NCBI GenBank assembly: GCA_903866825.1
Contig: CAIPPE010000180.1
Location: forward strand, 1 to 64,000
Source: an uncultured Methylococcaceae bacterium
GTDB taxonomy: Bacteria; Pseudomonadota; Gammaproteobacteria; Methylococcales; Methylomonadaceae
DNA length: 64,000 nucleotides
Reading direction: 5' to 3'
In this document: in pieces, positions 6,471-62,496 of the stretch
Numbering within the stretch: the stretch's first letter is position 1
How the letters are laid out: each line of letters opens with the position of its first letter
Translations under genes and position numbers: made by a program
Notes under the pieces: generated by a model
What the model saw: the letters and a program-made list of their open reading frames with translations, nothing else
The model's database searches: none
What the model was told of the DNA's origin: nothing

Positions 6471-6471
6471 C

Positions 6472-44141: not shown

Positions 44142-44213
44142 ATTGTCATAGGGATTTATAGGTTTTTGTTTTAAAGGGATTTAAAGTTAATTAATAGTGA
44201 AGAACGGTAGACT
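44142..44213. promoter_or_regulatory. Divergent late promoter with shared TTTAAA-N4-TTTAAA box
   Basis: Box TTTAAA-GGGA-TTTAAA at 44170-44185. To the left, 22 bp separate it from GACAAT (minus strand, 44147-44142) in front of the lysis operon. To the right, 22 bp separate it from TAGACT (44208-44213) in front of the 44277 gene. Because the arms are symmetric, one site could serve both directions. Confidence 0.65.
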
Positions 44214-44224
44214 TTCCCCAGCTT

Positions 44225-44246
44225 CTCGGCATGGCCGAGGAGTTTT
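44225..44246 (+). promoter_or_regulatory. Leader hairpin before the 44277 gene
   Basis: CTCGGC-ATG-GCCGAG, a tight 6-bp GC stem followed by GAGTTTT. It lies between the predicted promoter and the gene and may act as an attenuator or 5' stabiliser. Confidence 0.35.
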
Positions 44247-44276
44247 AATCCGTTAATTACCTTTTTAGGACATACA

Positions 44277-44687
44277 ATGAACAAAAAAATCTCGATTTTG
44301 CTTTCCGCGATAATTGTCAGTTTTATCGGCTTGACGGTCGATGGCGTTAAAGCTGCTATTGAAGGCGCATTGACTGTTACGTCCAGTAACCCCGGTGTTT
44401 TAAGTGTTGAGGCATTGCCTGATGGCACATATCAAATCACCGTAGTTACCCTGGGTACTGCCGATATTACGGTATCGTCGTTAGATGCAGCCGGTAATCC
44501 GATTACCACTACATTTAATTACGAAGTCTATGATCCGGCTGTGTTGGCCAACCATTTCGACGAAACTATTGTCAGTCAAACTTTACGGGTTACCCCTGCG
44601 TCTGCTGCTGCCGATGCTACTAACACGACTGAAACATCGGGTTCAGCAGTTGGTACAGCTGACCCAGCTAAAGATGCTGCTGCATAA
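44277..44687 (+). CDS. Secreted Ig-like (Big_2-like) prophage protein
   Basis: A 136-aa protein with a signal peptide (MNKKISILLSAIIVSFIGLTVDGVKA), one bacterial Ig-like domain (GALTVTSSNPGVLSVEALPDGTYQITVVTLGTADITVSSLDAAGNPI), and an Ala/Thr-rich tail. It has its own putative late promoter and a terminator after it, so it behaves like a separately transcribed unit ahead of the head operon. A surface or superinfection role, or a decoration protein, is possible; nothing proves it. Confidence 0.65.
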   Translation: MNKKISILLSAIIVSFIGLTVDGVKAAIEGALTVTSSNPGVLSVEALPDGTYQITVVTLGTADITVSSLDAAGNPITTTFNYEVYDPAVLANHFDETIVSQTLRVTPASAAADATNTTETSGSAVGTADPAKDAAA

Positions 44688-44703
44688 AAATTATCGCTCG
44701 TTG

Positions 44704-44731
44704 AAAGGCTGGATTTTTTCAGCCTTTTTAG
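44704..44731 (+). terminator. Rho-independent terminator after the Ig-like gene
   Basis: AAAGGCTG-GATTTTTT-CAGCCTTT followed by TTT. It should end transcripts from the upstream late promoter, at least in part, since no other promoter is obvious before the head genes. Confidence 0.75.
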
Positions 44732-44759
44732 CAGCCTATCCTTGAAGGGGTGCGACATT

Positions 44760-45050
44760 ATGAATAACTCTATATTATTGCCCCCTGAGCGGGAGCTGGA
44801 TGCACTACATGCCCCAGACGGGCATTTGAGCAAAGATGAGCAAGCTTCGGCGGTCGAGGATTTTTACCAAAATTTAGCCCTATTGCAGCATGTCCAGAAA
44901 CAGACTAAGCCCTCCGGCTTAGCATCGGCAGCACAGTGCATAGGCTGTGGCAACGACATTCCAGCAGGGAGAAAGTTAGCGTTGCCAGGCGTACAGTTAT
45001 GCGTAGAGTGTCAAACAGCATACGAATGGTGTGAGAAGGTACATGGGTGA
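44760..45050 (+). CDS. TraR/DksA-type zinc finger protein
   Basis: A 96-aa protein with the C-terminal C4 zinc finger of TraR/DksA proteins (CIGCGNDIPAGRKLALPGVQLCVEC) and a helical N-terminus. TraR-like proteins bind RNA polymerase in the secondary channel and shift host transcription. ATG with GAAGGGG upstream; the TTG start of the ORF track is not needed. It overlaps the DUF2730 gene by 8 bp. Confidence 0.85.
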   Translation: MNNSILLPPERELDALHAPDGHLSKDEQASAVEDFYQNLALLQHVQKQTKPSGLASAAQCIGCGNDIPAGRKLALPGVQLCVECQTAYEWCEKVHG

Positions 45051-45369
45051 TGTGATTAATTGGGTACATATAGCTCTGAGCGTAGGCGCGTTATCGCTAT
45101 CCGGTTTTAGCTTGTTGGACCGGCGGAATCAGGTAGAACAAAAAGACTTTCATCGCAAGTTAAATGAAATGGCAAGGCGAGTGGGAGAGGCTGAAGTCAA
45201 ATTGGCTTCGATGCCGACGCGAAATGAAATTGATAGTAAACATGAGCAGTGGCGTCTGGAAATGGCGCGTATTCATCAACGTATTGACGAAATTAATACA
45301 GGGATTAAAGATTCTCAGCTCATGTTAGGCGAGCTGATCGGTTTAAGCAAAGGAACAAAACATGGCTGA
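45043..45369 (+). CDS. DUF2730 protein (Mu gp25-like)
   Basis: A 108-aa protein with one N-terminal membrane helix (WVHIALSVGALSLSGFSLL) and a long coiled coil, as in Mu gp25/DUF2730. Function unknown; conserved at the start of the Mu-like head operon. The ATG is chosen because it overlaps the zinc-finger gene in the usual way. Confidence 0.8.
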   Translation: MGDVINWVHIALSVGALSLSGFSLLDRRNQVEQKDFHRKLNEMARRVGEAEVKLASMPTRNEIDSKHEQWRLEMARIHQRIDEINTGIKDSQLMLGELIGLSKGTKHG

Positions 45370-45649
45370 TTTAACGATAGAAGCAAGACGGCTGACTATT
45401 TTACAGTTGCTGGCGCAAGACACTAATTACTCAATCAATGATGTCCTGCTAAAAGATCTACTACGAAAATTCGGCTTTAATGTCGCCTTGCATGTTGTCA
45501 AGGCCGATCTGGCGTGGCTGGAGTCCGTAAATCTATTGGCTACTACGGATTTAACGCAGTGTCTGGTTGCTGTGCTTAAATCGGATGGTCTGGATGTATC
45601 CAACGGCGACTTAATCGTGCCGGGTGTGGCACGACCCAGGCCGACCTGA
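45362..45649 (+). CDS. Mu gp26-like phage protein
   Basis: A 95-aa winged-helix-like protein (ARRLTILQLLAQDTNYSINDVLLKDLLRKFGFNVALHVVKADLAWLESVNLL), matching the VpaChn25_0724/gp26 family by position and pattern. It may be the small terminase or a regulator; unproven. It overlaps its neighbours by 8 bp and 1 bp. Confidence 0.75.
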   Translation: MADLTIEARRLTILQLLAQDTNYSINDVLLKDLLRKFGFNVALHVVKADLAWLESVNLLATTDLTQCLVAVLKSDGLDVSNGDLIVPGVARPRPT

Positions 45650-46191
45650 TGGGGTCATCAATTACCGCCTTACCGCCGGACATTTTAGAGCAGTTGCAGG
45701 CCTTACTGCGTGATCCACGTGTTACTCAGTTGGATGCAACGACCCGGATTAATGCCATTTTAGCTGAGCAGGGCGAAGCACCGGTCAGTAAATCGTCGGT
45801 TAACCGTTATGCTATCAAAATGTCAACAATCGGAGCTAAGCTCACCCAATCCCGACAGATTGCCGACATGTGGATTGGAAAACTGGGCAACGAACCGGCT
45901 GGAAAAGTCGGGGCGCTGTTGAATGAAATGATCCGTAACCTGGCATTTGAGTCTGCCATGCATCTGGCCGATGGCGATGAGCCACCTGACCCCAAACTAT
46001 TAAAAGAGCTTTCAGTCGCCGTCGAGCGCCTGGAACGGGCGTCAGCGACCAATGAAAAAACCCAGCGCGATATTGAACAACGTGCTCTGGCTAAGGCCGC
46101 AGAGCGCGTATCACAAGCGGCCAAGGCACAGGGGCTGGATGAGGACCAAGCACAGTTCTGGCGAGAAAAAGTCTTGATGGGCGGTGTTTAA
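45649..46191 (+). CDS. DUF3486 protein (Mu gp27-like, probable small terminase)
   Basis: A 180-aa helical protein. The N-terminus has an HTH-like stretch typical of DUF3486 (LPPDILEQLQALLRDPRVTQLDATTRINAILAEQGEAPVSKSSVNRYAIKM). The location directly before the large terminase gives the likely role in DNA recognition for packaging. It overlaps the terminase gene by 1 bp. Confidence 0.85.
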   Translation: MGSSITALPPDILEQLQALLRDPRVTQLDATTRINAILAEQGEAPVSKSSVNRYAIKMSTIGAKLTQSRQIADMWIGKLGNEPAGKVGALLNEMIRNLAFESAMHLADGDEPPDPKLLKELSVAVERLERASATNEKTQRDIEQRALAKAAERVSQAAKAQGLDEDQAQFWREKVLMGGV

Positions 46192-47843
46192 TGCCTAATT
46201 TAGCACCGCTGGCTGACACGCAGCGGATTGTCGAATGGGATGAACTACCGGAGTCTGTGCGCTCATTACCTGCCAGTTTTAATCCGTTAGCCGAGGGCGT
46301 ATTTATGGCCCATCAAACCGCCTGGGTACGGATAATCCATATCTTTGACTTGGCGATTGCCGAAAAGAACCGGCGCTCCGGCATTACTCTGGCTACCGCA
46401 CTGGACGATACCATTACGGCAGCCTCTAAAAAATCAGCGGGTGGAAGCAACGTTTTTTATATTGGCGACACCCGAGAAAAAGGTCTTGAGTTTATTGGCT
46501 ATGTGGCCAAGTTCGCCAAGTTGATCGTTAAAGCGCAGGGCGATGGTGTCTCATCTATCGAGCAGTTTATTTTTGAAGACCAGGACACGCGCGGCGAGGC
46601 AACCCAGCAAATCACGGCATTCCGCGTGCGGTTTAGCTCCGGTTACCGGATTGTAGCCTTGTCCAGCCGTCCCGAGAATGTCCACGGCTTGCAAGGCATT
46701 GTCAATATCGATGAAGCGGCGTTGCATAAGGATGTTCGCAAAGTCATTGAGTCCGCTACCGCACTGTTAATCTGGGGTGGACGCATTCGCATCATCAGCA
46801 CCCACCGAGGGCTTAAAAACCCTTTTAACGAATTAATTCGCGATGTCCGCCAGGGCTTGTATGGCGCCAAGGCCGGGATATTCAAAATTACTTTTGACGA
46901 ATGTGTCGCCAACGGACTCTATGAGCGCGTGTGTTTTATGTCCGGCAAAACCCCGACGCCAGAAGACAAAAAAGACTGGTATCTACGCATACGTAAAGCC
47001 TATGGGCCGAGAAAATCGGCCATGCTGGAAGAGCTGGATACTATCCCGCGCGATGGCGAAGGCTCGGCGATACCAGGACCCTGGATTGAACGGGCGATGC
47101 GTGAAGTGCGCCCGGTGTTGCGTCTGTCCTTCGATGAAGATTTTAAACATTGGTCTGTGGACGCCAGAACAGCGGAGATTACCGCATTGATAAGTCGGGT
47201 CTTGTTGCCGTTGCTGCTTAAATTGCCAAGGGATTTACGGCATTATTTTGGAATGGACTTTGCGCGTAAAGGCCATTTGACCGTGATTACGCCTATTACG
47301 TTAAAGTTGGATTTGCAGCGCTTTGTGCCATTCGTAATCGAGTTGCATAACTGCCCGATCTTACAGCAACAACAAGTACTGTGGTATTTAATCCCTAAAC
47401 TGCCCCGCTTTTGCGGCGGCGCAATGGATGCCACCGGTCCCGGACAGAATATAGCTGAATTAACCTGGGAAAGTTTTAAAGCGGTAGAGCAGGTCAACCT
47501 ATCGCGACATTGGTACAGGGATAATATGACCGGCTTCGTGCAGGATTTTGAAGATGATATGTTTGATATTCCGCGTGATGCCGAGCATGAATCTGATCTA
47601 CGTGATTTAGAGCGTATCGATGGCATTATCATGCTACCTAAAACGGCGACTGAAAATGAAGAAGGCATTGCCCGGCATGGCGATTATGCCATTTCCCTGG
47701 CGCTTGCCGATTTTGCTGTGCGGACATGCAAGCCGTCACCGATTGAGTTTGAGTCTGATGGTGAGCGGGTGGCAATCGAGTTCGACAAACCGGATGGATT
47801 GGATGATTACAAAGCGGGTACGCCCGATTTTAGAGGTTTTTAA
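46191..47843 (+). CDS. Large terminase subunit (Mu gp28-like)
   Basis: A 550-aa packaging motor. The ATPase half contains an atypical P-loop region (AEKNRRSGITLA), Walker B GIVNIDEAAL and motif III RIISTHRG. The C-terminal nuclease half has the RNase H-like acidic residues in FGMDFARKGHLTVITP and GAMDATGPGQ. It cuts the concatenated or integrated DNA and fills the head. It overlaps the portal gene by 1 bp. Confidence 0.92.
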   Translation: MPNLAPLADTQRIVEWDELPESVRSLPASFNPLAEGVFMAHQTAWVRIIHIFDLAIAEKNRRSGITLATALDDTITAASKKSAGGSNVFYIGDTREKGLEFIGYVAKFAKLIVKAQGDGVSSIEQFIFEDQDTRGEATQQITAFRVRFSSGYRIVALSSRPENVHGLQGIVNIDEAALHKDVRKVIESATALLIWGGRIRIISTHRGLKNPFNELIRDVRQGLYGAKAGIFKITFDECVANGLYERVCFMSGKTPTPEDKKDWYLRIRKAYGPRKSAMLEELDTIPRDGEGSAIPGPWIERAMREVRPVLRLSFDEDFKHWSVDARTAEITALISRVLLPLLLKLPRDLRHYFGMDFARKGHLTVITPITLKLDLQRFVPFVIELHNCPILQQQQVLWYLIPKLPRFCGGAMDATGPGQNIAELTWESFKAVEQVNLSRHWYRDNMTGFVQDFEDDMFDIPRDAEHESDLRDLERIDGIIMLPKTATENEEGIARHGDYAISLALADFAVRTCKPSPIEFESDGERVAIEFDKPDGLDDYKAGTPDFRGF

Positions 47844-49465
47844 TGGCGCAATATATTAAGTTAAGCGATTCTGGTGTAATTATTCCAGAACGCGAATATG
47901 CCGAAATGCAGTCGTTGGGTAAAAAACCGTACCTCGGCGAAATTGCTACCGAGGAAATCGGCATGGACGTGATTAATCCCTGGTTTGTATCGGATATGAT
48001 CAAGCCGCCGAGCGATACAGTGTTGCGTGACAAAGGCAATTATTTTAATTACCGGCTCTATGACGATATTGCCCGCGATGACCAGGTTAAAGCCGCCCGG
48101 CAACAACGCGAGCTGGCGTTAATCAGCAAAGAGTGGGGAGTAACGCCGGGTGATGATAGTAGGACGGCGAAAAAAGCTGCCGACTTGCTGAGCGATGTGC
48201 TCAATAATAATCGGGTAGTATCAGACTGGACGCGGGAAAATATTTTGGGCTGGGATGCGACGACACAAAAAATGTTGGCAGCTGTGCTGTATGGTTATGC
48301 CGTTGCCGAAATTATGTGGGCGACGGATGGTACTAGCATCACTATCAGCGACATTAAAGTGCGCCATCGGGCACGGTTTGGGTTTTGGCCCAATGGCGAA
48401 CTGCGCTTAAAAACCGCTTACAACATCTCCGCTGGTCAAGCGCTGGACCCTGGTAAATTCTGGGCGTTTAGCTGTGGTGCAGATCATGATGATGAGCATT
48501 ACGGCTTGGGTTTGGGGCATTATCTGTATTGGCCGGTATTTTTTAAAAAATCTGGACTGCGCACCTGGCTGACTTTTTTAGATAAGTTCGCACAACCGAC
48601 TACTGTAGGCAAATACCCTGCGTCTGCGACAGATATCGAAAAAACCCGGCTCATGCAGGCGTTAAGAGCAGTACATAGCTCTACCTCGATCCGCATCCCC
48701 GATACTATGTCCGTTGAGCTGATGCAGGCTGCCCGTTCTGGCACGGCAGACTATACCGCGCTGTATGACCGCATGAACGCTGCTATCAGTAAGGTGTACG
48801 TCGGGCATACCGGATCACTGGATGCCACGCCCGGCAAGTTAGGCGGAGAAGATACCGCCGATCAGGTACGCGAGGATTTAATCCGCGCCGATGCGGATTT
48901 GGTTTGTGGATCATTTAACCGCACTGTTGCCCGCTGGCTAACGTATTACAATTTCGGCGCTAATGTTAAGCCGCCGAAAGTCTGGCGAAAAACTGACCCA
49001 CCTGCTGACTTAATGGCGCTGGCGAATAAGGACAAAGTGCTTTTCGATATGGGTTATAAACCCACTCTGAAGTACATTTGCGAAGCCTACGATGGCGATT
49101 ATCAAGAGATAACCCCGCCTGGCACGCCGATTTCTGATGGCACGGCTAACCTCAAAGAGACTGCCAAGGGCACCAATACCCCAGTTTTGTACAGTGAGCC
49201 GACCACAGCAAAGCTCAAGGATATCGACCCAACGCCGGTATCGTCTGAGACTGATATTTTAGCGAATGCTGCAGGCGCACCCGTCCACGCCATAATAAAT
49301 ACCGTGCGCGGCATGTTGGAGTACGCGGAATCATTAGAGGACTTCAGGGACAGGCTATTAAACGGTTATGGCCAGCTGGATAGTACCGAGCTGGAAAAAG
49401 TGATGGCACTGGGCTTTTCGGTAGCTAATTTGGCGGGGCGCTTTGATGTGAGCGAGGGCGGTTAA
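47843..49465 (+). CDS. Portal protein (DUF935, Mu gp29-like)
   Basis: A 540-aa protein with the DUF935 core (WGVTPGDDSRTAKKAADLLSDVLNN ... VLYGYAVAEIMW ... KTAYNISAG). It forms the dodecameric DNA channel of the capsid. The C-terminal part (about 470-540) is a helical extension also seen in Mu gp29. It is followed with 1-bp overlap by the head morphogenesis gene. Confidence 0.92.
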   Translation: MAQYIKLSDSGVIIPEREYAEMQSLGKKPYLGEIATEEIGMDVINPWFVSDMIKPPSDTVLRDKGNYFNYRLYDDIARDDQVKAARQQRELALISKEWGVTPGDDSRTAKKAADLLSDVLNNNRVVSDWTRENILGWDATTQKMLAAVLYGYAVAEIMWATDGTSITISDIKVRHRARFGFWPNGELRLKTAYNISAGQALDPGKFWAFSCGADHDDEHYGLGLGHYLYWPVFFKKSGLRTWLTFLDKFAQPTTVGKYPASATDIEKTRLMQALRAVHSSTSIRIPDTMSVELMQAARSGTADYTALYDRMNAAISKVYVGHTGSLDATPGKLGGEDTADQVREDLIRADADLVCGSFNRTVARWLTYYNFGANVKPPKVWRKTDPPADLMALANKDKVLFDMGYKPTLKYICEAYDGDYQEITPPGTPISDGTANLKETAKGTNTPVLYSEPTTAKLKDIDPTPVSSETDILANAAGAPVHAIINTVRGMLEYAESLEDFRDRLLNGYGQLDSTELEKVMALGFSVANLAGRFDVSEGG

Positions 49466-50655
49466 TGCCGTTAATTTTAAGCCCTACTCAGGTCGGCTTT
49501 AATGCCCGGGAGGACGGCAAGTTTAACCGGACTTTTCCCGAGCAGGCGGTCTTTTTTAAAAATAAGCTGAATATGCCCACCGAGCATTATCAGGATGTGC
49601 TAGCGGCTGGGCATGATCGGGCCTTTATGGTCGCAGGCGCAATGAAAGCAGATCTGTTGACCGATTTGAAGTCAGCAGTGGACAAAGTGATTAGGGATGG
49701 TAAAAGTTTTGGCGCTTTTCAAAAGGACTTCGAGGCTATCGTACAAAAACACGGCTGGGAAGGCTGGACGGGGTCAGACACCCAAGCAGGTAGAGACTGG
49801 CGTGCTCGGGTAATTTACCAAACCAACCTGTCAACCAGCTATTCCGCAGGACGCTATCAGCAAATGATGGATCCCGGTGTATTAGCGGCACTCCCGTACT
49901 GGAAATATCTACATAATGATTCCGTGCATCATCCACGTCCTTTACATGTCGAATGGAACAGCACCGTGTTGCCACATGACGATCCCTGGTGGGATGTTCA
50001 TTTTGCACCCAATGGCTACGGCTGCCGATGCCGAATTATCCCTGTGGATGCTACCGAGTATGAGGGAAAGCCAGCTCCAGATAACGGTACGTATACGTTT
50101 GTCGACAAACAGGGCGTATCGCATCAAGTACCTATGGGCATCGATTACGGCTTTGGTTATACGCCAGGTAAGAGCGTCGCCCAGCAGGATGTGCCGTTAC
50201 GCGAGATGATGCAGACTAAACTGGCAGGCTATGAGCCGCCGATCGGCAAGGGTCTGGCGCAAGCAGTTAACGCCTATCTGGCCGACGAGAAAAAAGGCTC
50301 GGCGATGGCCACGCAGGTTTTAGCGCATAGCGAGACCGATAAAGCCCCTGCCTGGGTGGGTCTAGTAGCGGAGCCTGCCCGGCTACAACGGGTGACCGGT
50401 ATCGATACCAAGGGTTTTGCTATTCTGTTACCTGCCGCTGCTATTCGCCATTCAGCCACGCATGGGGCAACGGCAACCGATTTTGATCAGGTGGCGCACG
50501 TGATAAACACTGGCGAATTGTCGCAGTCCATTGACGAAGCTGCCTTTGTAGCCGTGCTGGCCTTGGGTGATGCCGTGCTGCATGGTGAGTTTACTGTAGA
50601 TACGGCATTGCAGGCCGTGCTATTAAAATCATTATTGAGCCATAAAAAACCATGA
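49465..50655 (+). CDS. Head morphogenesis protein (Mu gp30/gpF), possible C-terminal PBECR remnant
   Basis: A 396-aa protein. Residues about 30-190 carry the phage Mu protein F domain (FGAFQKDFEAIVQKHGWEG ... SYSAGRYQQM ... RPLHVEWNSTVLPHDDPWWDVHFAPNGYGCRCRI). The C-terminus (about 285-390) contains FAILLPAAAIRHSATHG and ATDFDQVAHVINTGE, which resemble the IRH...HG start of PBECR nuclease-like domains found fused to such proteins. The later catalytic residues are not evident, so that part may be degenerate. It overlaps the gpG gene by 4 bp. Confidence 0.85.
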   Translation: MPLILSPTQVGFNAREDGKFNRTFPEQAVFFKNKLNMPTEHYQDVLAAGHDRAFMVAGAMKADLLTDLKSAVDKVIRDGKSFGAFQKDFEAIVQKHGWEGWTGSDTQAGRDWRARVIYQTNLSTSYSAGRYQQMMDPGVLAALPYWKYLHNDSVHHPRPLHVEWNSTVLPHDDPWWDVHFAPNGYGCRCRIIPVDATEYEGKPAPDNGTYTFVDKQGVSHQVPMGIDYGFGYTPGKSVAQQDVPLREMMQTKLAGYEPPIGKGLAQAVNAYLADEKKGSAMATQVLAHSETDKAPAWVGLVAEPARLQRVTGIDTKGFAILLPAAAIRHSATHGATATDFDQVAHVINTGELSQSIDEAAFVAVLALGDAVLHGEFTVDTALQAVLLKSLLSHKKP

Positions 50656-51101
50656 TCGAATTAACTTGGGATGATAGCGGTATTCAACGAGCTTTGCATA
50701 ATCTGCAACAGGCTACCCAACAGTTAAATACGCCCTTGAATGTAATCGGACTGAAACTGGTCGAGTCGACCAAGCAGCGCTTTGAAACCAGTACTGCGCC
50801 CGATGGGACGGAATGGAAGGAAAATAGACCGGTCACAATAGCCCGCAAGGGTACAGGTAAAAAACCATTGATCGGCAAAAACGGTAAGCTGATGGATCAG
50901 ATCAGCTATTCAGTATCAGGCAATGAATTACTGGTGTACTCGACGATGGAGTATGCCGCTATGCAGCAATTCGGCGGCACTAAAGCTGAGTTTAACCATT
51001 TGTGGGGTGACATTCCGGCACGCCCTTATTTAGGGCTATCGAGCGCTGATGAGTTGATGATTCAACGCATTCTGGACAACTATCTAAAAAATGCGTTTTA
51101 A
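50652..51101 (+). CDS. Virion morphogenesis protein (Mu gpG-like)
   Basis: A 149-aa protein of the phage_tail_S/gpG family (VESTKQRFETSTAPDGTEWKENRPVTIARKGTGKKPLIGKNGKLMDQI ... YAAMQQFGGTKA ... DIPARPYLGLSSAD). In Mu it is required for tail/head completion. Normal length. Confidence 0.9.
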   Translation: MIELTWDDSGIQRALHNLQQATQQLNTPLNVIGLKLVESTKQRFETSTAPDGTEWKENRPVTIARKGTGKKPLIGKNGKLMDQISYSVSGNELLVYSTMEYAAMQQFGGTKAEFNHLWGDIPARPYLGLSSADELMIQRILDNYLKNAF

Positions 51102-51199
51102 GGCGCGTTTTTAATACCCTCCGCATAACCACCACACTTTTTATTTAAAAACCCGCAGTAAAATCCATAAACCGTTTATAAACGTACTTCATCACTTGT

Positions 51200-51243
51200 T
51201 TTAAACCCCTTTAAAAGTCTTTTGTCAGGTCGCCGCTTACACT
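51200..51243 (+). promoter_or_regulatory. Late promoter before the protease gene
   Basis: Box TTTAAA-CCCC-TTTAAA at 51200-51215, then 22 bp, then TACACT (51238-51243). The predicted start of transcription is almost at the ATG (51252), so the protease mRNA from this promoter would be nearly leaderless, which fits the lack of a ribosome binding site. Confidence 0.6.
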
Positions 51244-51251
51244 ACGGCCCT

Positions 51252-52274
51252 ATGATGACAAATACAAAACCTTTATCCATTTTTAAACCGGGCACGCATA
51301 TTTCTGCGGCGGGCACGGAGTTGTCTTTTTCAGAAGCGGATTTAGCGGCGACGGCGGCGGCCTATAATTGTGCATTGCATAAAGCACCGTTGGTGCTCGG
51401 TCATCCCAAAGACAATACACCGGCCTACGGCTGGGTTAATACTTTAGCCTTTGCCAACGGGTTTTTGCAGGCGCTGCCAGAAATGGTAACTGCCGAGTTT
51501 TCTAACTGGGTAGCGGCGGGGCATTACAAAAAAATGTCTGCCGCGTTTTATCCGCCCGACAGTCCGGTAAACCCCGTACAGGGTGTTTATTATTTACGCC
51601 ATATCGGTTTTTTAGGCGGTCAACCACCGGCTGTAAAGGGCTTGCCTGAGCCTGAGTTTGCAGTTAGCACCGGCGAAATGACGATGTTTGCGTTTGCGGA
51701 CGGCGACACTGAGTTTATAACCATTGATTTTAGAGAGGATTTACCGGCGATGAGTACACAAACCGAAGAAGATAAAGCAAGGCTGGCTGATGAAAAATCT
51801 CGGCTTGAAATAGAAAAGGCCGCACTGGAACAGAGTAAAGCTGAGTTTAGCGAACAGCAACTGCAATTTAATACCCAAAAGGTAGAGCTGGAAGCGCAAA
51901 AGCGGGTTGCTAAAAAGCGAACGTTAACGGAGTTTACCGAGGCATTGGTTAAACAGGGACGCCTATTACCCAAAGATAAGCTGGGCGTGATTGAGTTTAT
52001 GGATACCTTGAATGACAGTGCTATTGAATTCGGCGAAGGCACCGAGAAAACTAAAACCCAGCCAGTAGACTGGTTTAAAAATTTCCTGTCAGGCTTGCCT
52101 AAGCAAGTGGATTTTACTGAAAAAACCCCAGGTAGCGAGAAATCGCTGGAGTTTACTGAAGATGCCCAGGCTATCGCCCAAGCAGCGTCTGAATATCAGG
52201 AAGCACAAAAGAAGATCGGTCGCATTGTTGATGATGTAACAGCGGTGCAATTCGTTTTAAAAAACACGAGATAA
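51252..52274 (+). CDS. Capsid protease/scaffold (Mu gpI-like)
   Basis: A 340-aa protein. The N-terminal half is the Mu I protease (PLVLGHPKDNTPAYGWVNTLAFANG ... MSAAFYPPDSP). The C-terminal half is a charged coiled coil (about 185-230) as expected for the scaffold that Mu also makes separately from an internal start. The ATG follows directly on the predicted late promoter; no Shine-Dalgarno sequence is seen. The ORF-track TTG start lies upstream of the predicted transcript start for that promoter. Confidence 0.87.
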   Translation: MMTNTKPLSIFKPGTHISAAGTELSFSEADLAATAAAYNCALHKAPLVLGHPKDNTPAYGWVNTLAFANGFLQALPEMVTAEFSNWVAAGHYKKMSAAFYPPDSPVNPVQGVYYLRHIGFLGGQPPAVKGLPEPEFAVSTGEMTMFAFADGDTEFITIDFREDLPAMSTQTEEDKARLADEKSRLEIEKAALEQSKAEFSEQQLQFNTQKVELEAQKRVAKKRTLTEFTEALVKQGRLLPKDKLGVIEFMDTLNDSAIEFGEGTEKTKTQPVDWFKNFLSGLPKQVDFTEKTPGSEKSLEFTEDAQAIAQAASEYQEAQKKIGRIVDDVTAVQFVLKNTR

Positions 52275-52277
52275 GTC

Positions 52278-52676: not shown

Positions 52677-52716
52677 TCTGCCGCTATTACATTTTTTATT
52701 TTAAGAGGATTTTTTT

Positions 52717-54398: not shown

Positions 54399-54403
54399 TT
54401 TTT

Positions 54404-54423
54404 GGCCCTTCGGGGCCTTTTTT
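54404..54423 (+). terminator. UUCG-tetraloop terminator inside the late region
   Basis: GGCCC-TTCG-GGGCC followed by T6. It ends the head operon directly before a new late promoter. Confidence 0.88.
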
Positions 54424-54426
54424 GTT

Positions 54427-54470
54427 TTTAAATCCCTTTAAAGCATTCCATCCTTAACGCCTTGTAACAT
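54427..54470 (+). promoter_or_regulatory. Late promoter of the tail operon
   Basis: Box TTTAAA-TCCC-TTTAAA at 54427-54442, then 22 bp, then TAACAT (54465-54470). It starts 4 bp after the U-run of the terminator, and the gp37 gene begins 25 bp downstream with AAAGGAGG. Confidence 0.7.
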
Positions 54471-54494
54471 AGCCTCATCATTAAAGGAGGGCGT

Positions 54495-55061
54495 ATGTCG
54501 AGTGTGATTGCCAATGTAGAAGATACCATCCTGGCTGCGGTTCAGTCCGGGTTGCCGGGATTGCTACGTGATACCGGCTCTTTGCCTGGATCTTGGTCGA
54601 TTGATCTGTTAAAGCTTTTGCTGCAAAGAGCGCCTGCGGTCTATGTAGCTTTCAACGGCGGTGATCTCGAATCATCTACGTTAACCCTGCTCAATGCCCG
54701 CTTTGATGTTTATGCTGTAGTCAAAGAGCCGACCGATTTTACCCGTCGTCGTGGTACGGCTACAACGATCGGCGCGTATGAAATCATTGAAGCGGTGATG
54801 CCATTGTTGAACGGCCTGACCATTACAGACTGTGGCAGTCTGCGTGGCAAAGCGATTACCAATTTATTTTCTAACGTACTGACCGATCTCGGCGGTACTG
54901 TTTACGCTATGCAATTACTGTTGCCACGCCTGCCGATCGCTGCAGCGATCGACGCTACAGCCCTCGCTAAATTTGAAATACTCTCTATCGACTCTTCGCT
55001 CACTGTTCCGGGCGCGGATGATTTTTCAACGCTTATCAATCTTCCCCAGGAGGGCGCTTAA
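54495..55061 (+). CDS. DUF1834 protein (Mu gp37-like)
   Basis: A 188-aa protein of the gp37/DUF1834 family (PAVYVAFNGGDLESSTLTLLNARFDVYAVVKEPTDFTRRRG ... GAYEIIEAVMPLLNGLTI). A tail completion/terminator role is likely by analogy. First gene of the tail operon. Confidence 0.87.
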   Translation: MSSVIANVEDTILAAVQSGLPGLLRDTGSLPGSWSIDLLKLLLQRAPAVYVAFNGGDLESSTLTLLNARFDVYAVVKEPTDFTRRRGTATTIGAYEIIEAVMPLLNGLTITDCGSLRGKAITNLFSNVLTDLGGTVYAMQLLLPRLPIAAAIDATALAKFEILSIDSSLTVPGADDFSTLINLPQEGA

Positions 55062-55283
55062 ATGTACTTGAAACCTGCTATTAATCCCGATACCGGCCAG
55101 CCGTATGTGATACGCCAGCCGGAACGACGATATCGGCGCATGCCTGATGAGGGCGATGAAATTCGATCCCTCAGTCATTATTACCGTCGACACATTAACG
55201 ATGGATCGTTAATTGTCGGATCCCCCGTTGCCAACGCCAGAACCCTGGATGTTGAAATCTTATCTGAAAAGGTCCGCGTATGA
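55062..55283 (+). CDS. DUF2635 protein (Mu gp38-like)
   Basis: A 73-aa protein matching DUF2635 (KPAINPDTGQPYVIRQPERRYRRMPDEGDEIRSLSHYYRRHINDGSL). Function unknown; always placed before the sheath gene in Mu-like phages. It starts directly at the upstream stop and overlaps the sheath gene by 4 bp. Confidence 0.88.
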   Translation: MYLKPAINPDTGQPYVIRQPERRYRRMPDEGDEIRSLSHYYRRHINDGSLIVGSPVANARTLDVEILSEKVRV

Positions 55284-56752
55284 GCATAGCGTTTGATTCA
55301 ATTCCAGGCCAAAATCTGCGGCTCCCAGGCGTTTATATCGAGTTTTCTGGAAACAACGCGGGCAGCTCAGGATTTCAGGGTAAAGCGCTGCTGATCGGCC
55401 AGTCATTTAATAATGGATCAGTTACCCCGGGCGTTATCACTAACATCAGCGGCACCAGCGCTTCGCCGGATAGTTTGTATGGCGCAGGCTCTATGTTGTC
55501 TGAAATGGTTAAAGCCGCCCAGAATGCTAGTCCCTGGCTACAACTCTATGCGGTTGCACTAGCTGATAATCCGGCAGGCATTCAGGCGGTCAAGTCTATT
55601 TTATGGGCTGGCACGGCTTTAAATCCAGGTACACTCAACTGCTATATCGCAGGCTATCAAGTGCAGATTGCCGTACTACAGGGTGATACAGCGGTAAACG
55701 TAGTCAGCCATCTGGTAGCGGCCATTAATGCTCTAACGGCGGTACCTGTAGTAGCATCAATCCATGCGGGTGTCCCAGCTCAAATTGATTTAACGTGCAA
55801 ATGGAAAGGTGCGACCGGAACGGCTATTGATGTACGTTTTACTTATTTTGTTGGTGATTTAATCCCTACTGGACTGACGTACACTATCACCCAAACTGTA
55901 GCCGGTTCGGGTGATCCAGATATTGCGGCGGCATTAGCCGCTATGGGCAGTCAATGGTACAACTGGATTGGGTGCCCATACTCCGGCTCATCCGATTTAG
56001 CAGAATTAAACACGATGCTGGGTGCGGCTTTCGGACCGATGGAAGCTATCGGCGGCACGGCGTTTGGAGCGTTTACCGGAAACCTGGCGCAAACCAGTTC
56101 TTTTGGTGCGACTGTCAATCTGGTCAACATGACTATTATCTCGACTGGTTTAAGCCCGACGGCCCCCTGGTTGTGGAGTGCGGTGTATACGGCCATTGCG
56201 GGGCAAGCGTTATCAAATGACCCGTCGCGACAATTACGCGGGGCGATACTGCCAGGCATATTGGCACCCGATGCGGGTGACCAATTTGGTAAATCTGCAC
56301 GCAACAGCCTGCTGTTTGACGGCATTGCAACCCATACCGTTGATGCAGCCGGTAATGTGGTGATCGAGTGCGAAATCAGTACCTATCAAACTAATGCTCT
56401 TGGTGTGCAGGACAGCACCTGGCTGTATATCCAGACTGCTGAAACACTGTCGCGCATCCGCCTGGCACAAGTAGAGTTTTTTACCCAACACTACCCTAAT
56501 TGGAAGTTGGCAGACGATAGCTATGTAGTGCCTACCGGTCAACCGATCATGCAGCCCAAGAAAGTCATTGCCGAGATGCTAGTGCTCTATATTTACTTTA
56601 TGGATTTGGGCTGGGTTCAGGATTATGACGTCTATAAAGCGGGTATTGCGGCGCAAATCAATAGCAGTAACGCTAATCGGTGCGATGTGCTTGACGATCC
56701 TATTTTAATCAAAAATATGCGCATCCTTGCGGTGCATAGCGAGTTTCAATAA
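55280..56752 (+). CDS. Contractile tail sheath protein (Mu gpL-like)
   Basis: A 490-aa sheath subunit. The N-terminus (FDSIPGQNLRLPGVYIEFSGNNAG) and the C-terminal handshake region (PKKVIAEMLVLYIYFMDLGWVQDYDVYKAG ... RCDVLDDPILIKNMRILAVHSEFQ) match gpL. It shows that the phage is a myovirus. It overlaps the tube gene by 1 bp. Confidence 0.93.
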   Translation: MSIAFDSIPGQNLRLPGVYIEFSGNNAGSSGFQGKALLIGQSFNNGSVTPGVITNISGTSASPDSLYGAGSMLSEMVKAAQNASPWLQLYAVALADNPAGIQAVKSILWAGTALNPGTLNCYIAGYQVQIAVLQGDTAVNVVSHLVAAINALTAVPVVASIHAGVPAQIDLTCKWKGATGTAIDVRFTYFVGDLIPTGLTYTITQTVAGSGDPDIAAALAAMGSQWYNWIGCPYSGSSDLAELNTMLGAAFGPMEAIGGTAFGAFTGNLAQTSSFGATVNLVNMTIISTGLSPTAPWLWSAVYTAIAGQALSNDPSRQLRGAILPGILAPDAGDQFGKSARNSLLFDGIATHTVDAAGNVVIECEISTYQTNALGVQDSTWLYIQTAETLSRIRLAQVEFFTQHYPNWKLADDSYVVPTGQPIMQPKKVIAEMLVLYIYFMDLGWVQDYDVYKAGIAAQINSSNANRCDVLDDPILIKNMRILAVHSEFQ

Positions 56753-57117
56753 TGGCTGGTAATAATCAAATAGTCGGCATGGCTAAAATATCCCTTGGTG
56801 CGTTAGGTATCATGGCAACGGAGCATGGAGCGACCCTCGACCCAGGCGGCATTAAACGCACGCCAAAACCCGCCGACGACGGCAAAGTCTATTTTACGGC
56901 GGAAACGGGCACTCCGATGCTGGAATGCAAAGTCATGGCGACGGCAGATGTCAATGCGAAGTTGCTTAATTTCGACAGCGCGACGGTAACATTTGAGACC
57001 GATACCGGTCAGACTTACTTACTGGTCAACGCGTTTACTACCGACCCAGCACCACTGGATGCCGGTTCTGGCACCTATGATTGCAAAATATCCGCACAAT
57101 CGTGCACGCCGATCTGA
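56752..57117 (+). CDS. Tail tube protein (Mu gpM-like)
   Basis: A 121-aa protein (GMAKISLGALGIMATEHGATLDPGGIKRTPKPADDGKVYFTAETGTPMLECKVMATADVNAKLL). Normal length for gpM. Its stop shares one base with the ATG of the chaperone gene (TGATG). Confidence 0.9.
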   Translation: MAGNNQIVGMAKISLGALGIMATEHGATLDPGGIKRTPKPADDGKVYFTAETGTPMLECKVMATADVNAKLLNFDSATVTFETDTGQTYLLVNAFTTDPAPLDAGSGTYDCKISAQSCTPI

Positions 57118-57494
57118 TGGCCATCCACGAATTCGATCTGATTAATGGGCTGTCAGTTGGCGACGACGATGCTAAGATCGTGCATAAGCACGTGAAGCTG
57201 AGAACGTTGACCGCAGGCGATCTGGAAGATGCAGCGTTGGTATCAGAACAAATGCTTAGGATTGGCAGCGAGGCTATTTTAGTGATGTCACCTACCCGCA
57301 TGGCGAATGCTATTTTAAAACGACAGATTTTACAGATCGGCGACATTAATGGCCCGTTGCAGGATGTATTTTTTAGACGTTTATCGGCTGCAGATTTAGA
57401 ACTTTTACAGGCTGAAGCCGATATTTTAGATTCGGCGGCACGGGCAGCGGTGGAGGCTGCTTTAACGCGGGGGCGATCTACTGAGCCAACATAG
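57117..57494 (+). CDS. Tail assembly chaperone, short (zero-frame) product (Mu gp41-like)
   Basis: A 125-aa protein from the ATG at 57117 (MAIHEFDLINGLSVGDDDAKIVHKHVKLRTLTAGDLEDA...), coupled to the tube stop. The ORF-track start (TTG 57081) lies inside the tube gene. Near its 3' end is CGGGGGCGA; a shift there gives the longer product listed separately. These chaperones bind the tape measure protein during tail assembly. Confidence 0.85.
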   Translation: MAIHEFDLINGLSVGDDDAKIVHKHVKLRTLTAGDLEDAALVSEQMLRIGSEAILVMSPTRMANAILKRQILQIGDINGPLQDVFFRRLSAADLELLQAEADILDSAARAAVEAALTRGRSTEPT

Positions 57495-57612
57495 GGAATT
57501 GCCCAATTTGTTGGCTCGGTTATCGGGTTTGTCGCATTGGACACGTACAGAAATTTTGCAACTCAGTCTGTTGCAGATTATCAAAATGATTTTTACTTTT
57601 AGGGCGTTGTGA
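57117..57612 (+). CDS. Tail assembly chaperone, frameshifted long product
   Basis: Zero-frame reading to CGG GGG (57468-57473), then a -2 shift (equal to +1 in frame) at CGGGGGCGA enters an open frame: GDLLSQHRELPNLLARLSGLSHWTRTEILQLSLLQIIKMIFTFRAL, ending at the TGA 57610-57612. The extension reads like the C-terminal part of gp41-prime of Mu-like phages (P/L-rich helix with conserved Trp). Mu is reported to use a -2 shift at the same type of G-rich site. The -1 frame is closed after four codons, which rules out the common lambda-type shift. Confidence 0.75.
57468..57476 (+). promoter_or_regulatory. Programmed frameshift site CGGGGGCGA
   Basis: A run of five G within CGG-GGG-CGA located 18 nt before the zero-frame stop. 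It matches the Mu-type slippery site for the tail chaperone. Confidence 0.75.
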
Positions 57613-57616
57613 GCGT

Positions 57617-59449
57617 GTGACGAATATTAAAGCCAAACTTAGTGTTGATCTGGGCGGGGATTTTATCCCTCAGGCACAACGCGTGGCCGAACGTATGAAC
57701 CGTTTTTCGCTGTCAATGACGCGCAGTATGCGGGTGTTACGTGCCGAGGCGCATCTGACGACAGCCGCACTAGGTGCGCCTATCGGCCACCTTGATACGG
57801 GTGCGGTACGGACAGATCTCACCGCGCTGGACCATGCCGTTCATACGTTGACCTCTGAATTGAGGCACATGCATGAACAGATGCATGTGAGTAGCTTTAA
57901 TCCTGGTGCGGCACGGGTGGAAATTACCGCGATTGATCATGCGGTGCATTCGTTGACATCGGGGCTAGGGCGTATGGATAGCCAGTTGCATTTGAATACT
58001 CAGGCCTTATCGCAGTTTCGGCGCGAAGCTACTCAAACTGGTACTGCCGCAGTGCAATTGCAAGGCCGTATGTCGAGGATGGGTGCCCGCATGGGCATGA
58101 TGGCAGCGGGAACGGCGGCTATAGCGACCACTGCTTTTTTACGTAAAGACATCCAGCTCGAAGATGCCATGCTGCAAGTTAAATCAAATCTGGTTAGCGG
58201 TGCTAAAGATGCACCTGACCTCAATAGGAAACTAAAAGAGGTTCGCGATACCGCACGGGATTTGTCTGAGATGACGACGTTCAGCGACGCTGAAATGATA
58301 CAGTTAACCAATCAATTATTAAAATCCGGGGTCAATCCAGAATTTATTTCCGGAAAGCAAGGGGCCGCAGCTGGGACGGCGGCCTTAGCACAACTTAATG
58401 GCTTAGATCCGGTGACAGCAGCGGAGTATATGGGCGCATTAGGGAATGCATTTTCGTTTAAATCAAAAAAAGAATATATGGATTTGGCAAATTATATCGG
58501 TAAAGCCGATGACGCTTCGGCAATGAATAGTACTAGTATTTTATATAACGTTAAGCAAGGATCTGCTAATGCAGCTGCATTGCATATCGATCCTCGAAAA
58601 CTGGTAGCTATGAATGCGTATATGGATTCACTCGGCGATGAGGCGGGCACGTCTATTAATCGGTTTTTGGAATCATTGGCCGGGGTTTCTAAGATCAAGC
58701 GTAAAGAAATCGCTAAATCAGGGATGGATTTCTGGGATGAGGGAAAAAATGGAGTCGTTACGATGAAACCGATTGATAAAATTGTTGATATTGTGCGTGA
58801 CCATTTCAGGCCGATGAAAAACGAGCAACAAAAAATAAATCAAAGTCATCAGATATTTGGGGAAGAAGGCGCACGCGCAGCGCTTTTATTTTCGTCAAAA
58901 GATCAATCATTTACAGATTTTCAAGCCTCCGTCGACCAATCGACTGGATCCTTCGATAAGCTTGAGATACAAATGGGCGGCCTAGGTTCTGCGGCTAGCC
59001 GCTTAGGTAATACAGTGCTGTCATTAGCTGATGAACAGTTCGCAGGGCTGCGTGTTGCGATTACAGACGTGATCAATTACACCAACGAAAACTTGCAGGG
59101 TAAAAAATCTGCCTGGCAAGACACGAAAGAGTTTGCTATCAAGAACGGTGCAGGTATTTGGGAAGCGACTAAAGAAGGCTCGTCGTCACTGTTTAACGGC
59201 TTGTCGTCAACCCTGGGCTTAAGCGATGAGCGGTTATTATTTCCGAGTTCTACATCTGGATTAAGCGATAAGCAGATTTTGCCTCAGGGTGCAGCACCCG
59301 TGTCGCCCCCGCAAAAAATCGAGGTGACGCTGAAAAATTTAAGCGATACGCCGTTAAAGTTGCAAAGCACGGCCACTTTTCCCAATAGTGATGTCTCGCT
59401 TAAAAATACCAATAACCAAACTAGCAAACGCGCCGGGGCACATTACTGA
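57617..59449 (+). CDS. Tail tape measure protein (Mu gp42-like)
   Basis: A 610-aa protein with a GTG start. The N-terminal region has internal repeats (DLTALDHAVHTLTSELRHMHEQMHVSS / EITAIDHAVHSLTSGLGRMDSQLHLNT), then the TP901-type tape measure core (LQVKSNLVSGAKDAPDLNRKLKEVRDTARDLSEMTTFSDAEM). Only one modest hydrophobic patch (MGMMAAGTAAIATTAFL). Length predicts a tail somewhat shorter than or near that of Mu. It overlaps the gp43 gene by 1 bp. Confidence 0.88.
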   Translation: MTNIKAKLSVDLGGDFIPQAQRVAERMNRFSLSMTRSMRVLRAEAHLTTAALGAPIGHLDTGAVRTDLTALDHAVHTLTSELRHMHEQMHVSSFNPGAARVEITAIDHAVHSLTSGLGRMDSQLHLNTQALSQFRREATQTGTAAVQLQGRMSRMGARMGMMAAGTAAIATTAFLRKDIQLEDAMLQVKSNLVSGAKDAPDLNRKLKEVRDTARDLSEMTTFSDAEMIQLTNQLLKSGVNPEFISGKQGAAAGTAALAQLNGLDPVTAAEYMGALGNAFSFKSKKEYMDLANYIGKADDASAMNSTSILYNVKQGSANAAALHIDPRKLVAMNAYMDSLGDEAGTSINRFLESLAGVSKIKRKEIAKSGMDFWDEGKNGVVTMKPIDKIVDIVRDHFRPMKNEQQKINQSHQIFGEEGARAALLFSSKDQSFTDFQASVDQSTGSFDKLEIQMGGLGSAASRLGNTVLSLADEQFAGLRVAITDVINYTNENLQGKKSAWQDTKEFAIKNGAGIWEATKEGSSSLFNGLSSTLGLSDERLLFPSSTSGLSDKQILPQGAAPVSPPQKIEVTLKNLSDTPLKLQSTATFPNSDVSLKNTNNQTSKRAGAHY

Positions 59450-60882
59450 TGGCAAGCGTACCGCCTATCTTGTCGGGGTTATTACCGCATGCTACGCCAT
59501 CGACCAAGCTGCCTGCCCCACCGGCTTGGCTAGCTAAGATGCATACGCAACCAGGCTCCCTTAACGGTGTAAAATTCTTTGTCGAGTCGGGCGCTGGAAA
59601 ATTTGGCCGCCGGACGGTGATACATGAGTTTCCCGGTCGGGATATGCCGTATATTGAGGATATGGGCCGCAAAGGCCGACATTTAACATTACAGTTGTTT
59701 GTAATTGGTGCAGATTATATGACTGGCCGAGATGCATTGATTGCTGAGATCGAAAAACCGGGGCTTAAACGCATCGTACACCCCTGGCTAGGCCGCATGA
59801 ACATGATAGTGCTGGAATTCGAACTGTCGGAGTCCACGCGGGAGGGCGGTGTAGCCATCTTTACAGTGGTGATGTCCGAATCGGTGGGAGAGGTGTTGCC
59901 TGCAGCTGTCGTTAATACCCAAAGCGCAACGCTGGCTGCTGTTAAAACGGCACATTTATCCGTAATCGCTAATATGAGCGCAACGGTAATGAGTGCCGCA
60001 ACCTACGTGCAAACGACGCTGGGTAATGCTATCGATGATTTAAACATCGGTTATCAAAATATGATAGCAGGTTTGCCAATTCCAGCGGGGGCATTGACCG
60101 CTGTAGTTTCCGGGGCTGAAGCTGCGATTCGTGGACAAAATCCATTGTCTGCGATTCTGGGTCAATGGTCTACGCCTGCGGGCATCGTGTCGTCGGTTGT
60201 GAGCTTAGCGTCAGGGAGTACAGGCTTGCTCTGTAACCTTGTGCAGCTGTCCTATTCAGGGCTATTACGGGGCGGCGCGTTGACTAATTTAGGCGTGTCT
60301 ACTAATTATTTTGGTGGCTCTCCCGTTACGCCACCCAATTTAGTGCGTGCTGTGCAACCGGCCCCGATAATGCCGTTGCCTTATACGGTAAGGCCATTGA
60401 CGCCTTTGAGACTAGTCCAGGCGCTAAACCCGCAGATTATTTGGCCGCTATTACCCCAAAATACCCCAACCCAGATCCAGGCGGCCACTCATGTGTCGGC
60501 ACTTCAAACTGCTGTCGCACAAGTGGCTGCGATTGAGCAGGCACGACTTTCATCGGCTCTGGCCTATGCGCGTCGCCAGGATGCATTTGCGGTGCGCGAT
60601 TATGTCTGCGGCCAGTTGGCGAAGATCGTACTGACGGCTGATAATAACGTATATAGTCCGATTAAATTATTGCAAGCGGCGGTGTATGCTGATCTGACAG
60701 CCATCGGTAACAGTGATCCACAAGTCAATTTGTTTACACCGTCATCGACGTTACCTGCGCTTGTGATTGCCTATGGATTATATGGCGATGCATCGCGAGA
60801 AGTAGATATTTTGGCACGCAATCCCGGTATTGATCCGGTATTTGTACCGGGTGGCCTGCCACTGGAGGTATTGAGTGTCTAA
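59449..60882 (+). CDS. DNA circularisation/tail protein (Mu gp43, gpN-like)
   Basis: A 477-aa protein with the DNA_circ_N domain at residues about 20-120 (AWLAKMHTQPGSLNGVKFFVESGAGKFGRRTVIHEFPGRDMPYIEDMGRKGRHLTLQLFVIG). The rest is Ala/Pro-rich. In Mu it is a tail/baseplate component needed for infection. It overlaps gp44 by 8 bp. Confidence 0.88.
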   Translation: MASVPPILSGLLPHATPSTKLPAPPAWLAKMHTQPGSLNGVKFFVESGAGKFGRRTVIHEFPGRDMPYIEDMGRKGRHLTLQLFVIGADYMTGRDALIAEIEKPGLKRIVHPWLGRMNMIVLEFELSESTREGGVAIFTVVMSESVGEVLPAAVVNTQSATLAAVKTAHLSVIANMSATVMSAATYVQTTLGNAIDDLNIGYQNMIAGLPIPAGALTAVVSGAEAAIRGQNPLSAILGQWSTPAGIVSSVVSLASGSTGLLCNLVQLSYSGLLRGGALTNLGVSTNYFGGSPVTPPNLVRAVQPAPIMPLPYTVRPLTPLRLVQALNPQIIWPLLPQNTPTQIQAATHVSALQTAVAQVAAIEQARLSSALAYARRQDAFAVRDYVCGQLAKIVLTADNNVYSPIKLLQAAVYADLTAIGNSDPQVNLFTPSSTLPALVIAYGLYGDASREVDILARNPGIDPVFVPGGLPLEVLSV

Positions 60883-61936
60883 CGTACAGTTGTTGATAAA
60901 CGGGCAGTTGTGGGGCGGCTGGAAAAAGGTAAAAGTCGTGCAATCGATTAAAACTGCCTCTAATTGGTTTGATTTTAGTCTGGCAGATCGGTGGATATCC
61001 GACGTTACGCCGATGCCGATTTTAAAAGGCCAGCCATGCCAGGTGTTGATTGATTCTATACCCGTAATTACCGGTTATGTCATGGATGTGTTGCCCTCGT
61101 ATGATGCCGAATCACATACTATCAATATTGGCGGTTTAAGCAAAGCAGTCGATTTGGTAGATTGCTCAACCAGCGGTTTACAGTTTAGCGGTCGTACCTT
61201 ATTGCAAATCGCGCAGGCGCTTGGTGCTCCTTTCGGCATTGCAGTAACCTCTGCAGCCGATGTCGGTGCGCCGTTCCCCGCTGTTGCGCTGGAACCTGGC
61301 CAATCGATATTCGATTTTTTAAATGAATTGTCGCGGGTGCGCGGTGTACGCCTGATTAGTTTGCCCGACGGCTCTATCAGTTTTGTTAATACCGGTACCC
61401 TGGTGTCACCGACGCCCTTAATCTATGGCGATAACATTCTTCGGGCTAGCGCAAGATTTTCAGCCGAGGGAGATTTTAGTCAGGTTACTGTGGTCTCTCA
61501 GACGCGGGGTACTGATACTGATTTTGGGGCGGCTGTTTCGCTAAACGGGGCGACCGCTTTCAGCTCTGGAAGCCGCTATAGGCCTTTGACAGTGATTGCC
61601 GACGGTCCAGCCAATACGGCAGATTGCAAAGTGCGATCACGGGCAGAATTAAATCGGCGTAGTGGTGAAGGGCAACTGATTTCATATACCGTTCAAGGCT
61701 GGTATAACGCCGGTGGGTTATGGACACCGAATACGCTAGTAGATATATTCGACCCCATTTTAAATATTAATGATCGACTATTGATTACGCAAATTGGATT
61801 TGAAGTAGATGATCAAAGCGGCTTTACTTGTACTCTGGAAGTACAGCCGTCTGCTGCATTTGATCTGTTGCCGTTAGAGATCGCTGCTATCCCGGACGCT
61901 GTCAAAATCAACACCAAACGGAGTAAGCGAGCATGA
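60875..61936 (+). CDS. Baseplate hub protein (Mu gp44, gpP-like)
   Basis: A 353-aa protein of the gpP/gp44 family, related to T4 gp27 (VQLLINGQLWGGWKKVKVVQSIKTASNWFDFSL ... GRTLLQIAQALGAPFGIAV ... FLNELSRVRGVRLISLPDGSISF). It forms the central baseplate hub. It starts with ATT/TTG-context but the ORF-track start overlaps gp43 suitably. It overlaps the gp45 gene by 4 bp. Confidence 0.9.
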   Translation: MSNVQLLINGQLWGGWKKVKVVQSIKTASNWFDFSLADRWISDVTPMPILKGQPCQVLIDSIPVITGYVMDVLPSYDAESHTINIGGLSKAVDLVDCSTSGLQFSGRTLLQIAQALGAPFGIAVTSAADVGAPFPAVALEPGQSIFDFLNELSRVRGVRLISLPDGSISFVNTGTLVSPTPLIYGDNILRASARFSAEGDFSQVTVVSQTRGTDTDFGAAVSLNGATAFSSGSRYRPLTVIADGPANTADCKVRSRAELNRRSGEGQLISYTVQGWYNAGGLWTPNTLVDIFDPILNINDRLLITQIGFEVDDQSGFTCTLEVQPSAAFDLLPLEIAAIPDAVKINTKRSKRA

Positions 61937-62442
61937 TGCGTATGGTTAAGGGCATGATTATGCGGGGGTTGGTCACGCTGGTAAATTCATCGCTTAAAAT
62001 GCAGGCCATGCAGTTGCAGGGATTAGGCGCAATGACGCTAGATAGTGTAGAAAATTTTGAACCCTATGGGTTTACTGCTGCCGCTTTGCCAGGTGCTGAG
62101 GGCATTATTTTGAATGTGGGTGCGCATGCCGGTAATGCAGTGGTTATTTGCGTTGCGGATCGACGCTATCGATTGTCCGGTTTGGCTGGAGGCGAGGTGG
62201 CTGTCTATGATAATCAGGGGCAATCGGTAGTGTTATATGCCGATCATATCGGGATTACCAGTCCTTATAAAGTGGTCGTTTCTGCGCCGGAAACCGACAT
62301 CGACTGCCCCATTGTCAACATTAACTCATCAACTATTAATCTGGGCGGAGCCGACGGTCATCCTGTAGCGCGGGTGGGTGATTCAGTAGATCCGACGACA
62401 ATGAAAATTGTTAGCGGCTCAACAGTTGTCAGCGCTCTCTAA
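61933..62442 (+). CDS. Baseplate spike protein (Mu gp45-like)
   Basis: A 169-aa protein with the gp45 OB-fold (LVTLVNSSLKMQAMQLQGLGAMTLDSVENFEPYGFTAAALPGAEGIIL) and a C-terminal beta-helix-like stretch (APETDIDCPIVNINSSTINLGGADGHPVARVGDSV). It is the central membrane-piercing spike. In Mu gp46-48 would follow; here a separate unit begins instead. Confidence 0.9.
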   Translation: MMRMVKGMIMRGLVTLVNSSLKMQAMQLQGLGAMTLDSVENFEPYGFTAAALPGAEGIILNVGAHAGNAVVICVADRRYRLSGLAGGEVAVYDNQGQSVVLYADHIGITSPYKVVVSAPETDIDCPIVNINSSTINLGGADGHPVARVGDSVDPTTMKIVSGSTVVSAL

Positions 62443-62452
62443 CGAGTGTGAT

Positions 62453-62496
62453 TTTAAATTGATTTAAATTAAAATCATGATCATCCATTGTTTAAT
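62453..62496 (+). promoter_or_regulatory. Late promoter before the signal-peptide phage gene
   Basis: Box TTTAAA-TTGA-TTTAAA at 62453-62468, then 22 bp, then TTTAAT (62491-62496). The arms and spacing equal the other late boxes although the centre differs (TTGA rather than CCC). Confidence 0.6.

Follow-up and report, generated by a model that had tools for sequence, protein, structure and literature searches.

Transcription from the middle promoter Pm of bacteriophage Mu is activated by a Mor dimer bound to a 16-bp element at -51 to -36, and Pm has no -35 element; the bound element, which consists of 5-bp inverted repeats around a GC-rich 6-bp centre, has been footprinted and belongs to a proven Mor promoter (PMC4390567, PMC4287176). 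We analysed a stretch of 64,000 nucleotides (nt; the window, contig CAIPPE010000180.1 of assembly GCA_903866825.1) from an uncultured Methylococcaceae bacterium, in which a Mu-like prophage carries four TTTAAA-N4-TTTAAA boxes in front of late genes and one gene for a Mor-family activator. With a probability of about 88%, judged from comparison of the sequences, the boxes are operators for a dimer of this single activator, which would directly drive all late promoters of the prophage. Experimental work on Mor and C has, to our knowledge, been confined almost entirely to Mu, and within our partial coverage of the literature no earlier account of Mor operators at the late promoters of Mu-like prophages was found. 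The system is a new variant of Mor/C-type phage promoter control.

Predicted late promoter boxes of the prophage and the Mor promoter of Mu

A sequence-only reading of the window had proposed four exact boxes, each exactly 22 bp from a -10-like hexamer, and all of them lie where it placed them. Box 1 (TTTAAAGGGATTTAAA, 44170-44185) lies between the leftward lysis-side operon and the rightward packaging-side operon. TAGACT (44208-44213, plus strand) stands 22 bp to its right, and because GACAAT (44142-44147, minus strand), which faces the gene at 43509-44111, also stands 22 bp to its left, the box faces two divergent operons and is a predicted bidirectional Mor operator. The other three boxes and their hexamers, again at 22 bp, are on the plus strand. 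Box 2 (TTTAAACCCCTTTAAA, 51200-51215) precedes the head maturation protease gene and is followed by TACACT (51238-51243), with a predicted transcription start near 51250. Box 3 (TTTAAATCCCTTTAAA, 54427-54442), followed by TAACAT (54465-54470), precedes the tail operon with a Mu gp37-like gene at 54495, and the stem of a clear intrinsic terminator (54404-54417, plus strand) lies immediately 5' of it. Box 4 (TTTAAATTGATTTAAA, 62453-62468), followed by TTTAAT (62491-62496), precedes a Gp80-like virion gene. A -10 hexamer is present at each site, the weakest being the one at 62491, in which position 2 is not A. There is no extended -10, TTG standing in place of TGN ahead of the hexamer at two sites. 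The absence of a -35, likewise proposed before, was borne out, since the best candidate at 15-19 bp matches TTGACA at just 2-4 of 6 positions at all sites. Assuming a start 7 nt past the hexamer, the box is a 16-bp dyad of the Mu Pm type, with 5-bp inverted repeats and a centre at about -43.5.

Within the 32.6-kb prophage (31401-64000), the four exact boxes compare with a mean of 0.012 and a maximum of 1 in 1000 dinucleotide shuffles of the same interval, and chance is excluded as their source. A search of the 4.28-Mb genome for boxes followed by exactly N22-TANNNT gave three of the four prophage boxes and no others; the remaining genome-wide box matches, which stand 23 or 24 bp from a hexamer, were set aside as having the wrong spacing. 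The window has only one further exact box, at 9391, which lies upstream of the prophage and not within it; neither strand shows a convincing -10 at N22 from this box, which serves as an internal negative.

In the Mu genome (AF083977) the Pm stretch reads AGTAAAGCCGGTTAAT-N22-TATCCT, with the hexamer at -13 to -8 as read here. The boxes of the window resemble it in the half-site (NTTAA), the 16+22+6 geometry, the GC-rich centre and the lack of a -35, and in both phages the end of the early operon encodes an activator of the Mor family. Pm, however, is a single middle promoter from which C is made, whereas the window has four copies of the element at late promoters, one of them facing both ways. 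In this respect the window is like Plys, PI, PP and Pmom of Mu, four promoters before lysis, protease and other late genes that depend on the Mor/C-family activator C, but the sites of C have a different box, of the CATAACCCC type, which the boxes of the window do not show. The closest analogue in Mu is the Pm site of Mor, not the late-promoter sites of C.

Conservation of the predicted promoters and the recognition helix of Mor

Relatives of the prophage were found through alignments of portal, Mor and protease; none came from Mor alone or the window protease alone against viral contigs, nor from Mor alone against genome contigs. The strict TTTAAA-N4-TTTAAA was not found in the first distant relatives, and boxes appeared when the core was relaxed to TTAAA-N4-TTTAA, which is the essential part, the outermost base pair differing among relatives. 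Conservation in related prophages was one of the checks that the sequence-only reading had set, and prophages and phages of other genera do have box, 22-bp spacing and -10 ahead of late genes of the same kinds. The general form, found at lysis, protease, tail or baseplate genes, is NTTAAA-N4-TTTAAN, exactly 22 bp and then a -10. The prophage of Methylomonas sp. SURF-1 (NZ_JANIBM010000017; G147) shares with the window its gene set, the boxes at the protease (GTTAAAGCCCTTTAAC-N22-TACGAT) and at the lysis/packaging divergence (GTTAAAGCGGTTTAAC, with hexamers at N22 on either side) and a C-terminal unit of Mor. It differs in the outermost pair of the dyad, changed symmetrically from T:A to G:C, in the position of Mor, directly upstream of the protease, and in being spread over two contigs. 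Divergent hexamers at N21-22 occur in SURF-1 and also in the viral records G604 and G605, and the same core with N22 precedes protease, tail or lysis genes in G604, G605, G607, G608 and G609. Box 2 is kept in SURF-1, in these five records and in Pasteurella phage AFS-2018a, and with N23 in G522.

In AFS-2018a (MH238466), a complete phage with an annotated record, lysis, protease, tail and baseplate genes are preceded by four boxes, from which N22 leads to TATACT, TATTCT, TAAACT and TAATAT; the record carries no annotation of these promoters. Box type, spacing, near-consensus -10s, late-gene positions and the presence of one Mor gene are as in the window, whereas its genes are ordered on one strand as in Mu and its Mor, of 125 amino acids, lacks the C-terminal unit. 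In Pseudomonas phage Komp_PAO1_1, TTTAAACCYGATTAAA-N22 precedes the protease and occurs at three further sites. In its record (L346), the protease match at 5112-7241 is on the plus strand, where an opposite-strand hypothetical protein is annotated. Among 32 directed core boxes, the window excluded, 15 NANANT hexamers stand at spacing 22, compared with a mean of 0.54 per other spacing. The consensus pooled from 26 directed promoters is T-TTAAA-GCGC-TTTAA-A, N22, NANAMT and then a C-rich discriminator, and the box persists among phages of 47-65% GC. A Mor match is present in 43 of 56 related-phage records; one relative, G064 (Mor 42% identical), has no convincing box on a contig without most late genes.

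The recognition helix of the window Mor reads SVQQIYNI (Q86-Q87). Dyad position 4 is A in 9 of 9 cases with Gln, Met or Asn at helix position Q86 (window numbering), Mu Mor included, and G in 12 of 13 related-phage records with Arg at the same position. By box type, Gln goes with TTAAA and Arg with TGAA/TTTGAC, and Gln also stands at this helix position in Mor of AFS-2018a and of Komp_PAO1_1. The comparison shows the sequence of the predicted operator and the recognition helix of Mor varying together in the wider group.

The Mor-family protein and alternative explanations

The activator gene (32131-32679, minus strand; 182 amino acids) is the last but one gene of the early operon. Its product matches the Pfam Mor profile (PF08765) at 74.8 bits, against a curated cut-off of 24.9, and its PHROG match is a late transcriptional activator. 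It is the only Mor-family protein encoded in the genome, with no second Mor/C protein. The architecture of the family, an N-terminal dimerisation unit followed by a helix-turn-helix (HTH), was recovered as helices and a strand in an AlphaFold2 model (mean pLDDT 76.5), the top Foldseek matches of which, with weak E-values (0.03-0.07) and counted as support only, are Mu C (9l0x) and Mu Mor (1rr7). In this model the helix-helix-strand unit of residues 4-49 recurs at 120-164, and in G604 and G608 the C-terminal extension is weakly matched by the N-terminal part of the Pfam profile, so that the extension resembles a duplicated dimerisation domain. The C-terminal unit (window residues ~118-164) is common to SURF-1, G064, G604, G605 and G608 and is absent from Mor of Mu, AFS-2018a and G609. 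HTH-only Mor-like proteins without the N-terminal dimerisation unit are encoded near the repressor region in SURF-1 (L060, 13619-14062) and in G605 (L228, 26691-27125); they are possible competitors for the same boxes.

From these data we infer Mor binding, activation, the start sites and the two-way use of the 44170 dyad. In a Mor dimer, each of the two HTHs would read one half of the 16-bp dyad; the dimer, centred at about -42.5 to -43.5, would stand in for the -35 and activate host sigma-70 RNA polymerase at the -10 located 22 bp downstream. The symmetric dyad of box 1 may serve polymerase on either side. Since Mor would be one of the last products of the early transposition operon, it would directly switch on every late promoter without the Pm-to-C step of Mu, so that the lysis/packaging divergence, the protease and capsid genes, the tail genes and the Gp80-like virion gene would be turned on together. 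The Mor regulon inferred in the sequence-only reading is supported by the conserved boxes, the match to Mu Pm, the sole Mor of the genome and the co-variation of box and helix. Several points weigh on the other side. The association of box and helix (Fisher p = 2e-5) is uncorrected for shared ancestry and uses boxes picked partly by eye; G050, whose portal is 57% identical, has no convincing box; and site 4 (62453), the least certain of the four, has a weak hexamer and no clear counterpart among relatives. A one-mismatch box in G604 (3795) was not used as its counterpart, being at the start and not the end of the 61933-like gene.

The alternative that survives best, though improbable, is that another phage regulator, for example the product of the winged-HTH-like gene 45362, the DksA-like protein or an unrecognised HTH protein, binds the boxes while Mor acts elsewhere. 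Genes like 45362 and DksA-like genes are likewise common in these phages, but in the window both are encoded within the late operon, which would itself have to be activated beforehand, and the box not only shares its half-site and geometry with a proven Mor operator but also tracks the HTH of Mor in its sequence. Somewhat less probable again is that the boxes are repressor operators that silence the late genes in the lysogen, palindromic operators near promoters being typical of repressors too and a Cro/C1-type repressor gene being present in the prophage at 40207. The boxes, however, lie at a fixed distance upstream of the -10, at the place of -35 contact; promoters without a -35 and with a site at such a distance need an activator, and Mu uses a site of this layout for an activator. 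An artefact of AT-rich intergenic DNA, in which TTTAAA palindromes are common, has next to no probability: with two mismatches allowed the matches are just modestly above chance (20 versus 11.1), but the exact boxes are far above it, the spacing of 22 is unique, phages of 47-65% GC keep the box, and conservation in independent phages has already refuted this reading.

Protease start, gene order and late regulation

The mechanical open reading frame of the protease starts at 51222, upstream of the -10, and its start was corrected to 51252 (gene 51252-52274, plus strand). The ATG at 51252 or 51255 lies 8 or 11 nt past the -10, which gives a predicted leader of about 2-5 nt. In the relatives L050, G604, G605, L070 and B3 the protease ATG lies 6-8 nt past the -10, as in CACAAT-acggcc-ATG (G604), TAAACT-gcagcc-ATG (G605) and AAAACT-ggcggc-ATG (L070). 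Across 80 non-redundant protease starts of relatives, symmetric dyads cluster 50-54 nt ahead of the ATG (36 matches), and the distance from the end of a NANNNT hexamer to the ATG is 6 nt in 27 and 7 nt in 19 (46 of 80 together), compared with about 3 at other distances. Since sigma-70 transcription starts about 7 nt past the hexamer, translation at such loci would begin at or beside +1. We predict from this layout that the late protease mRNA is leaderless in many Mu-like phages; in another clade, by contrast, a leader of about 20 nt carries a Shine-Dalgarno-like sequence. The -10/ATG layout is also seen outside the TTAAA group, in phage B3 and others. In the B3 record (L340, AF232233) the annotated CTG protease start, at 344, lies upstream of the predicted promoter, and the gene appears to start in fact at the ATG that stands 7 nt past CACTCT. 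No paper on leaderless mRNA in Mu-like prophages was found in the part of the literature covered.

Two gene orders occur: the protease module comes after gene G in the window, Mu, G522 and G607, and after Mor in G604, G605, G608, G609 and probably, across its two contigs, SURF-1. The box moves along with the protease-to-tail module (window 50652-52274 versus G604, G605, G608 and G609). With a predicted Mor operator of its own, each late module could be reshuffled and remain controlled, and the two gene orders agree with this.

Profile searches identified in the leftward early operon a transposase with a weak integrase-core match, an AAA ATPase, DUF3164, GemA and the Mor-family protein. Leftward from box 1 run a candidate SLT-domain endolysin and its neighbours (41308-44111). 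Rightward from 44.2 kb follow a gene labelled Ig-like in the sequence-only reading, which has no Pfam match, then genes for a DksA-like protein, small and large terminase, portal, F and G, and the protease; after the protease come the major capsid, connector, Mu gp37-like, sheath, tube, tape measure and baseplate genes and the Gp80-like virion gene. In the product of the last of these (62488-63021), a Gp80-type virion domain (podophage GP4 fibre/head protein) comes after a start that resembles a signal peptide, and this structural gene, at the far end of the late region, has a box to itself. The contig stops at 64358, so that it may lack the right end of the prophage. A polyphosphate kinase 2 (PPK2) gene at 30484-31383 adjoins the left end and is probably a host gene at the insertion site.

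Taken jointly, the observations point to a picture to which we give even odds: a large Mu-like group in which a single Mor-family activator would directly drive the late promoters, operator and helix would co-evolve, many of the promoters would produce head-protease mRNAs with AUG at +1, and the Mor of the methanotroph subgroup, its dimerisation domain duplicated, would act both ways from one dyad. The cascade would then have two steps and be simpler than that of Mu, and these phages would offer a natural library of activator/operator pairs with readable specificity, Gln-A and Arg-G at one operator position. Late structural mRNAs without a 5' leader, as predicted here in many phages, are unusual; if the prediction is true, the switch to late morphogenesis would depend on leaderless translation.

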